Shown one piece after another: positions 4,426 to 6,323 of a stretch of DNA of 14,570 nucleotides; the stretch's first letter is position 1; every line of letters starts with the position of its first letter. The DNA is taken from the NCBI GenBank assembly GCA_031268065.1, contig JAIRXX010000245.1, positions 1-14,570 of the forward strand, read 5' to 3'. Source of the DNA: Propionibacteriaceae bacterium (GTDB lineage: Bacteria; Actinomycetota; Actinomycetes; Propionibacteriales; Propionibacteriaceae). The translations under genes were made by a program, and so were the position numbers. Below the pieces are notes generated by a model that searched no databases, was not told the origin of the DNA, and was given only the letters and a program-made list of their open reading frames with translations.

Positions 4426-6156
4426 TCAGCTGGCAGCCCGGTTGATCGCGCTCACCACAGCCCGAAGCGACGCGGTGATGATCGACTCGTGCATGCCGAC
4501 GCCCCAGAGCTGCTGCGCCTCATCGCCGGTGCCGACTTCGGTCTCCACGTAGGCCGCCGCCACCGCGTCGCCACCCGAAGACAGCGCATGCTCGGCGTAA
4601 TCGAGCACCCGCACCCGGTAGCCGAGGCTGGACAGCGCATCGACGAAGGCCGACACCGGGCCGTTCCCCTCCCCGCTGACCTGGCGCTCAACGCCTCGGT
4701 CAAAGACCACTGCGGCGATGGTGTAGCCGTTGCCGTTGGAAGTCGATGTCACGCTGACCAATTCCAGCGGGGCCTTCGGCGCCAGATATTCAGCTTGGAA
4801 AATATTCCACAACTCGGCGGAAGGCACTTCCCCGCCCTCGGCGTCGGTGCGCTTCTGGACGACGCGGGAGAACTCGATCTGCAACCTTCGCGGCAAGTCG
4901 AGATTGTGCTCCGACTTCATGATGTAGGCCATCCCGCCCTTGCCGGACTGCGAATTCACCCGGATGACAGCTTCATAGCTGCGGCCCACATCGTAGGGAT
5001 CGATCGGCAGATAGGGGGCTTCCCAATCAACCTCGTGGATTGTGCTGCGCTGTTCAGCCGCCTTGCGCTCCAGATCGTCCAGCCCTTTCTTGATGGCGTC
5101 CTGATGGGAGCCGGAGAAGGCGGTGTAGACCAAATCCCCGGCGTAGGGATGGCGCGGATGCACGCTGATATTGGTGCAGTATTCGACGGTGCGGCGAACC
5201 TCGTCAATGTCGGAGAAGTCGATCTTGGGATCGATGCCCTGGCTGAAGAGGTTCATCCCCAGGGTGACCAGATCGACGTTGCCAGTGCGCTCGCCGTGCC
5301 CGAAGAGGCAACCCTCCACCCGGTCGGCCCCGGCCATCAGCGCCAATTCGGTGGCTGCGGTGGCGGTGCCCCGGTCGTTGTGCGGGTGCAGCGAAATCGC
5401 CGCGAATTCGCGGTTGTCAACGTGCCGGATGAAGTATTCGATCTGGTCGGCGTAGGTGTTGGGGGTGGACATCTCCACGGTGGCGGGCAGATTCAGTATG
5501 ATCTCCCGCTCCGCGTTGGGCTGCCAGACCTCCATCACGTTGTTGCAGACCTCGACGGCGAAGTCGGTGGGAGTCTGGGTGAAAATCTCCGGGGAGTACT
5601 GATAGCCGAATTCGACGTCGCCCAGATACTTGTCCGCGTATTCAACGACCCACCCGGTGCCTTGCCGGGCCAGTTGGACGCATTCGGCGGCGCTCATCTG
5701 GAAGACCAGGCGGCGGAATAGCTCGGCGGTGGCGTTGTAGAGGTGGATATTGGCCCGGTGCGCTCCAACGATTGACTGGGCGGTGCGCTCGATCAAATCT
5801 TCCCGCGCCTGGGTCAGCACGGTCACCGTAACGTCTGCGGGGATGGCGTCGGTCTCGATGAGCTGGCGGACGAAATCGTAATCGGTCTGGGAGGCCGAAG
5901 GGAAACCGACCTCGATCTCCTTGTAACCCATAGCGACCAGCATGTCGAACATCCGGCGCTTGCGCCCCGGCGTCATCGGATCGATGAGGGCTTGGTTGCC
6001 GTCGCGCAGATCGGTGGATAGCCAGCGCGGGGCTTTGGTGATCTTGTTGTCCGGCCAGGTGCGGTCGGGCAGCGCTATCGGCTGGAATGGCTTGTATCTC
6101 GGATAGGGCATCGGTGATGGCTGCTGCACCGGCTTGGGCTGCTTCTTAGTGTTCAT
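4426..6156 (-). CDS. leuA: 2-isopropylmalate synthase
   Basis: LeuA condenses acetyl-CoA with 2-oxoisovalerate to give 2-isopropylmalate, the first committed step of leucine synthesis, in the cytoplasm. The 576-residue length and N-terminal extension fit the long type II actinobacterial enzyme. The TIM-barrel catalytic domain shows LRDGNQAL (50-57, with the R51/D52 pair), [11 protein letters not shown] (223-233), HPHNDRG (257-263, metal-binding H257 and H259) and GHGERTGN (286-293). The C-terminal part, from about residue 455 ([15 protein letters not shown] onwards), is the LeuA dimer/regulatory domain that binds leucine for feedback inhibition and appears intact. The ATG is set by GAGGA (6170-6166) nine bases upstream. 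That site can be hidden by a leader RNA structure, so translation is probably controlled by leucine supply. A GC-rich hairpin follows the stop codon. Confidence 0.97.
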
Positions 6157-6164
6157 AGCTGTTA

Positions 6165-6292
6165 TTCCTCGTTCGTTCCCGCCTGTGCGCCCAGCGCTCC
6201 ACGCGGATTGGTTTGTGATTGATTTGACCGATCAGGCAGGAGAAAACTCCGCAACGAGGAAGCCCGATTGACGAATGTCTAGGCCTCGCTGC
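6165..6292 (-). promoter_or_regulatory. Putative leucine attenuator: competing RNA stems that expose or hide the leuA ribosome binding site
   Basis: On the leuA transcript, arm A (6292-6284, GCAGCGAGG, inside the leader peptide gene) can pair with arm B (6259-6251, CCUCGUUGC; 9 bp with one G-U). B shifted slightly (6261-6253, UUCCUCGUU) is also perfectly complementary over 9 bp to C (6173-6165, AACGAGGAA), which contains the leuA Shine-Dalgarno. The two pairings are mutually exclusive. The interval between B and C is itself closed by an 8-bp stem (6240-6233 with 6185-6178, one G-U) just upstream of C. A ribosome stalled at the Leu codons leaves A free, A:B forms and leuA is translated. A ribosome reaching the leader stop covers A, B pairs with C and leuA is shut off. 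Pairings are read directly from the sequence; the mechanism is inferred. Confidence 0.7.
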
Positions 6293-6323
6293 GGCGACGA
6301 AGCAGCAGTCGCGCACATGCCAT
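6279..6323 (-). CDS. leuL: Leucine leader peptide (14 residues, three consecutive Leu codons)
   Basis: The short frame ATG 6323 to TAG 6279 encodes MACARLLLRRRSEA. Codons 6-8 are CTG CTG CTT, a Leu run like those that sense charged leucyl-tRNA in leader peptides upstream of leucine biosynthesis genes. It lies 122 nt upstream of leuA on the same strand. Its last codons overlap arm A of the leader hairpin, which gives the position of the ribosome a regulatory meaning. There is no ordinary ribosome binding site before ATG. A TACCAT box seven bases upstream suggests that the transcript starts at or next to the ATG (leaderless). An in-frame TTG six bases upstream, with AGGGTG before it, is an alternative start. 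It is too short to be supported by coding statistics; support comes from the Leu run, the position and the paired RNA arms. Confidence 0.7.
   Translation of the reverse strand: MACARLLLRRRSEA

Follow-up and report, generated by a model that had tools for sequence, protein, structure and literature searches.

A LEU element upstream of leuA in a Propionibacteriaceae bacterium and its relatives, with a possible ribosome-read switch at the Shine-Dalgarno region

The window analysed here, a stretch of 14,570 nucleotides from a Propionibacteriaceae bacterium (assembly GCA_031268065.1, contig JAIRXX010000245.1), carries leuA on its minus strand and, directly upstream of it, a short leader open reading frame (ORF) that contains consecutive Leu codons (Table 1). 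Read in minus-strand letters, the leader begins with the ATG at 6323 and ends with the TAG at 6281-6279; its Leu codons stand five bases before arm A, and arm A ends two bases before the stop. Arms A and B can form a helix of 11 uninterrupted pairs, one of them G-U, and TTCCTCGTT is perfectly complementary over 9 bp to AACGAGGAA, with the Shine-Dalgarno (SD) sequence of leuA included. A Leu-run upstream ORF, a position directly upstream of leuA and the capacity to form a pseudoknot are features of the LEU element of Actinobacteria of Seliverstov et al. 2005, for which the accessible parts of that paper give a Leu leader peptide, a pseudoknot and a base stem between the Leu codons and the SD (PMC1262725). 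Because the LEU element was published in 2005, the locus is not new, and the window adds a further member.

Table 1. Coordinates of leuA, its leader and the candidate pairing strands in the window
Feature	Position	Strand	Basis or remark
leuA, 2-isopropylmalate synthase, 576 aa	4426..6156	-	product name from family resemblance
Leader peptide ORF MACARLLLRRRSEA, 14 codons plus TAG	6279..6323	-	letters; frame conserved in relatives
Sensor codons CTG CTG CTT	6300..6308	-	letters
Arm A, CCGCAGCGAGG	6284..6294	-	11 bp with B; relatives
Arm B, CCTCGTTGCGG	6249..6259	-	partner of A; possible competitor for the SD
Anti-SD stretch TTCCTCGTT, B plus 2 nt on its 5' side	6253..6261	-	9 bp with 6173-6165
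Arm C, leuA SD region AACGAGGAA	6165..6173	-	letters
Pseudoknot strand 1, ATCGGGC, in the loop of A:B	6262..6268	-	7 bp with 6237-6231, one G-U
Pseudoknot strand 2, GCCTGAT, 3' of B	6231..6237	-	partner of 6268-6262
-10-like box TACCAT (TAnnnT)	6331..6336	-	7 nt upstream of the leader ATG; would give a leaderless transcript

From the window sequence alone, the case is modest. Of 2000 dinucleotide-shuffled leaders, 21 contain 9 bp of Watson-Crick complementarity to the SD region, and 24 of 300 contain an 11-pair helix; the folding z-score of the real leader is -1.2. No Rfam family matches at its gathering threshold, with a lax search returning only RF02166 (E=0.75) on the other strand, and no two-hexamer sigma-70-type promoter is found at 5900-6700. 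The significance of the leader comes from its relatives.

Using a covariance model, R1, built on 32 aligned leaders, we found a match at E <= 0.01 in 286 of 296 class genomes, the window's own genome included; at this threshold R1 finds no element in the other 10, among them all three sampled f14 genomes (G069, G088 and G102). From this class search, 30 loci were taken automatically and 100 were picked for family spread among the matches listed (about 150), and this first element sample leans toward better-scoring elements; a scan of named genomes yielded only 5 loci. The gene downstream of the 161 elements is leuA in 152, leuC in 7 and leuB in one (L076), and the remaining element (L052) stops at a contig end. 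The window's element falls in one sequence family with that of Streptomyces: S. thermodiastaticus L036, itself part of the model alignment, scores 52.4 bits with R1. A usable start is present in 160 elements (L090 was lost), 151 of them before leuA, and an SD anchor in 157 (L006, L036 and L139 were dropped). Candidate pairings were assessed by own-versus-swapped pairing energy, in a first run on 152 leuA elements of the 161, from 29 families, and in a second run with cleaner starts on 148 elements from 28 families. The perfect-run tests and the masked folding also use these 148 elements, the column covariation scan uses 145 unique rows, each covering 80 aa or more of LeuA, and run counts in the window's genus cover 22 of its 23 listed members (L006 was lost).

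The leader itself is highly regular, which supports the Leu leader proposed in the sequence-only reading of the window. Of 160 elements, 155 carry three Leu codons at the fixed place, and all 160 have their stop 2, 5, 8, 11 or 14 nt after arm A. In 63 further parsed leuA elements, from weaker second matches in the same genomes, Leu occupies 185 of 189 sensor positions. Among the 151 leuA elements of the first set, 146 use CTT as the third Leu codon, compared with 2.7% of the 3592 Leu codons in their leuA genes; in the second set of 63 it is CTT in 43 and CTC in 20. CTT is favoured over CTC at this position (6302-6300 in the window) although it is rare, and the first two sensor codons in the window are both CTG. 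An in-frame leader start preceded at 6-9 nt by a TAnnnT box is present in 132 of the 160, against a background of 1.6% per position (spacings of 5-9 nt and any in-frame ATG, GTG or TTG were allowed). A leaderless leader, suggested earlier as a possibility, is consistent with the TACCAT of the window and with S. lividans LeuL1, which lies before leuA and is mapped as leaderless in the accessible part of the report (PMC8079986); element L147 has a leader identical to LeuL1, MRFGLLLLSCRGEGL. The weak single-sequence statistics would suit an unregulated upstream ORF whose stems arise by chance from G+C-rich sequence, a reading made very improbable for A:B, the leader and the pseudoknot by the matches in 286 of the 296 class genomes, the fixed geometry and the covariation described below.

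The relatives strongly back both A:B and the pseudoknot as predicted structures. For A:B, the own pairing is better than the swapped one in 29 of 29 families (p=3.7e-9), and 1576 of 1594 cells are paired, with compensatory change; the stem proposed from the window alone thus stands, with arm A starting at 6294 rather than at 6292. For the pseudoknot, which joins the loop of A:B to bases that follow B, the own pairing is better in 26 of 29 families (p=2.6e-7), and 783 of 1155 cells are paired, versus 464 and 436 when slid by one, with a register picked from the same alignment. The five top pairs of the whole alignment in a tree-based column scan are A5:B7, A6:B6, two pseudoknot pairs and A9:B3; only A5:B7 beats a heavy-tailed tree null, and the other four have E=1.7-9. 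The minimum-energy fold of the window, which is blind to pseudoknots, pairs 6237-6233 with 6185-6181 instead, a helix that would compete with the pseudoknot. Overall, these comparisons establish at the sequence level a conserved leader ORF, a fixed distance from the Leu codons to A, a stop just after A, a covarying A:B and a predicted pseudoknot.

Other pairings of the leader were rejected. A possible closing helix ahead of the Leu codons, pairing GGCGCG with CGCGCC and spotted by eye in the genus, gives p=0.38 in the class-wide own-versus-swapped comparison, and a pairing of the Leu codons with B gives p=0.72. Apart from A:B, the pseudoknot, B:SD and Leu-codon:SD, the five pairings compared in the 29 families are not significant (p from 0.12 to 0.88).

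Two strands of the leader could close the SD of leuA, and the relatives speak differently for each. For B, the support in the class is moderate, as judged from sequence comparison, and is clearest in the window's genus. The own B:SD pairing is better than the swapped one in 21 of 29 families in the first run (p=0.0035) and in 19 of 28 in the second (p=0.0095), where control pairings give p=0.83, 0.074 (own worse) and 0.49. Perfect runs average 5.47 for own and 4.66 for swapped partners (p=0.054, 17 of 28 families). The 9-bp complementarity noticed in the window is indeed there, and of the 22 members measured in the genus 20 have runs of 7-9, the exceptions being L004 with a run of 5 and L025 with a run of 3; across the class, runs of at least 7 occur in 38 of 148 elements and are uncommon outside the genus. 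Covariation in relatives, which the earlier reading had looked to, is thus found for A:B, together with the Leu run, but B:SD is not universal. Tree-based column covariation detects nothing for B:SD under the heavy-tailed null, and a clade-specific register may lie behind this. The spacer from B to the start codon is long in the window (92 nt) and in L003 (86 nt), the median being 54 nt.

The Leu-codon:SD stem of the 2005 description finds weaker support than B:SD in the same comparisons. Its own-versus-swapped results are 17 of 29 families (p=0.21) and 17 of 28 families (p=0.074), perfect runs average 4.91 for own and 4.80 for swapped partners (p=0.25), and runs of at least 7 occur in 20 of 148 elements. 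Among the measured genus members these runs do not exceed 5, and the longest through the SD in the window is 3. Nevertheless, in the ribosome-free minimum-energy fold of the window, 6308-6296 (the Leu codons and the next bases) pairs within 6170-6145, a region that runs from the SD into the first leuA codons. Moreover, CTCCTT fills codons 2-3 in 87 of 151 leuA elements, a stretch that we take to resemble the 16S anti-SD; anti-SD mimicry alone as the cause of the CTT choice is weakened by the GTA and ATT codons of the leuB elements described below. This fold and this stretch, along with the 2005 description and the mutant data that it cites (PMC1262725, accessible parts), would suit the published arrangement alone, in which a Leu-codon:SD base stem lies under the pseudoknot, B:SD is incidental, and a stalled ribosome or a protein opens the stem. 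The three Leu-codon:SD comparisons and the short runs in the genus speak against it, as do the leuB-type elements, which retain A:B without the CTCCTT stretch, and we regard it as rather unlikely. A simple two-state choice between A:B and B:SD, as originally drawn for the window, is incomplete too: it missed the pseudoknot, and the free SD is predicted to pair mainly with the Leu-codon region.

To relate ribosome position to SD accessibility, we folded the leader with the ribosome footprint masked, in a model that does not include pseudoknots. In the window, the predicted probability that the SD is unpaired is highest for a ribosome on Leu codon 1 (0.88), drops through codon 2 (0.42) and codon 3 (0.25) to the stop (0.12), and is 0.28 for ribosome-free RNA, in keeping with the direction expected earlier, an SD open at low and closed at high leucine. 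Over the class, opening is greater at codon 1 than at the stop in 112 of 148 elements and in 23 of 28 family means (p=0.0027), with a small effect (0.41 at codon 1 versus 0.26-0.27 at the stop) and a broad peak (0.38-0.41 when codons -2 to +1 occupy the A site, falling toward the stop). Codon 3 compared with the stop gives p=0.063 over all elements, and the stop compared with free RNA gives p=0.75; the third Leu codon, the most conserved, leaves the SD of the window unopened. The folding model thus fits an SD opened at low leucine, with a moderate effect.

We tentatively favour, as a reading a little short of probable, a LEU element of leuA that acts as a ribosome-read switch, with stalling at Leu codons opening the SD and B together with the Leu stretch closing it. 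When leucine is low, a ribosome would wait on the first Leu codons, covering the Leu-codon stretch that otherwise pairs with the SD and leaving A free; free A would then hold B as A:B, and the SD would stay open. When leucine is plentiful, the ribosome would reach the stop and cover A, so that B, with the Leu stretch behind the ribosome, could take the SD and leuA translation would fall. On RNA free of ribosomes the SD would also be mostly closed. Since the Leu stretch is itself a candidate anti-SD strand, a stalled ribosome would remove one lock and A the other, and the two anti-SD strands would act as two locks opened only by a Leu-stalled ribosome. A translational output through B:SD is a plausible hypothesis at the level of the folding model.

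The element is not confined to leuA. Seven elements, all of family f34 (L088, L096, L108, L112, L135, L143 and L152), keep their Leu codons before leuC; the LeuC piece of one f34 locus matches the other six at 89-96% by tblastn and belongs to the Aconitase family. L076, before leuB, is 78% identical to a leuB piece. The weaker second matches in the same genomes comprise 109 loci, of which 65 precede leuA, 36 leuB and 3 one unfamiliar family, and 5 are unidentified or chance matches (L215, L222, L225 and L226 look like chance, and L175 has no identified gene). The 36 leuB loci, among L173-L272, were called by tblastn, with one piece checked as Iso_dh; 2 of the 65 leuA loci (L271 and L276) and one of the 36 leuB loci (L216) did not parse. 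At the f7 loci L193, L208 and L210, an LLV or ALV leader is followed by a protein about 110-125 aa long or longer. A LeuA regulatory domain was considered for this protein and is at most a lead: Pfam LeuA_dimer is below its cut-off in one of the three (E=0.065) and absent in two, and BLASTP against the LeuA of the window gives E=0.11.

In the leuB elements, the scaffold is kept and the sensor codons are different. The stem is present in all 36, and the stop after A and the frame are kept in the 35 that parsed, yet the sensor codons read, for example, FVLI, LVLI or VRIL. Val, Leu and Ile account for 121 of the 140 sensor residues in these 35 leaders, and 33 leaders contain all three. Their codons are again mostly rare ones: GTA makes up 33 of 40 sensor Val codons versus 0.9% of 531 in the leuB stretches of 26 loci, ATT 14 of 34 sensor Ile codons versus 0 of 123, and CTT 21 of 47 sensor Leu codons versus 2.1% of 524 (the same 26 loci). 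In 22 of 23 leuB-element genomes searched, an ilvE gene (TIGR01123) is found no more than 2.7 kb away on the same strand; in the remaining one the distance is 6.2 kb. Since IlvE makes Val, Leu and Ile, the codon set of the leuB-ilvE elements fits the products of the operon. In 17 of 27 cases, a small ORF with a ..DNGG.. motif stands between the element and leuB, starting 114-352 nt after the element start. This small protein (MYDMYPEWGPASHDPDNPRS..ALDLRDNGGQRPDDN type, e.g. L201 at +302) gave no Pfam family for the one tested. At such distances, capture of the SD by B is doubtful for the far ones among these elements, and leuB elements far from a start codon may have another output.

Such far starts would be easier to understand if codon sensing acted on transcription, by intrinsic, Rho-dependent or pausing attenuation, with SD pairing as a side effect. 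In C. glutamicum, attenuator transcripts before leuA are reported (PMC4046766) and leuL is termed transcriptional attenuation (PMC8709942), each in the accessible part of the source. AGTTTTCT follows B in the window, and at least 5 T in the 11 nt after B occur in 42 of 151 leuA elements, but TTTT within 12 nt after B occurs in only 13 of 151, and S. lividans LeuL1 is described, in the part available, as lacking a typical Rho-independent terminator (PMC8079986). A terminator scan of loops of 3-8 nt, to which A:B with its 24-nt loop is invisible, found no site. Furthermore, A:B as a terminator would have the wrong sign, because a ribosome at the stop covers A. We consider a purely transcriptional output unlikely.

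The change of sensor codons with the downstream gene bears most directly on what reads the leader. The 2005 authors held leader-peptide attenuation to be unlikely and proposed a binding protein; as cited there from Craster 1999, mutations in the S. coelicolor leuA leader had some effect that did not fit classical attenuation, and mutations of the Leu codons had no influence on regulation (PMC1262725, accessible parts). Both cited mutant results speak against simple codon reading. The natural codon swap, seen in sequence comparison, argues the other way, favouring codon reading by the ribosome over the protein-binding proposal, which leaves unexplained why the sensor codons track gene identity. 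It is the strongest new argument here for codon reading, and the cited mutant data point in the opposite direction. Specificity would then be set by codon identity, the leuB-ilvE relatives carrying Val, Leu and Ile codons. In its broadest form, this leads to a codon-programmed family with one pseudoknot scaffold and a leaderless leader read by the ribosome, in which 3-4 mostly rare sensor codons are swapped to match the operon products (Leu for leuA and leuC; Val, Leu and Ile for leuB-ilvE) and the SD opens only when a ribosome waits there and both anti-SD strands are removed. We regard such a family as possible and still doubtful.

Control of leuA in Actinobacteria has been puzzling since at least 2005, with a leader peptide and a conserved structure, other attenuator parts absent, and mutants that do not fit attenuation. 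If the codon-swap reading is true, the question of ribosome versus protein becomes testable, and the scaffold could be recognisable before other operons. In the accessible text of the open-access literature searched, we found no report of the leuC and leuB-ilvE elements, of the B:SD pairing or of the codon swap.

The proposed switch shares features with several known systems. In ermC-type translational attenuation, a ribosome stalled in the leader ORF shifts the pairing and frees the downstream SD. The release of an SD by a stalled ribosome is shared, whereas the signal there is a drug and here would be amino-acid shortage at sense codons; here, in addition, one middle strand, B, would choose between A and the SD, and a pseudoknot is predicted. 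We know of no LEU-type stem or pseudoknot in the cysteine uORF attenuators of mycobacteria. These attenuators, reported by Canestrari 2020, share a leaderless leader ORF and runs of the regulated amino acid, and belong to operons of cysteine. Leader peptides before leuA are shared with S. lividans LeuL1 and with leuL of C. glutamicum and C. diphtheriae (PMC8709942, PMC5784534), which the accessible parts of these sources list as attenuator peptides without proposing an SD switch. The 2005 model differs in that a protein was suggested there, while the leuC and leuB-ilvE relatives favour codon reading here. Finally, in the LEU element of 2005 both alternative folds have Leu-codon:SD pairing as their base stem, and B:SD would add to it a second possible anti-SD pairing.
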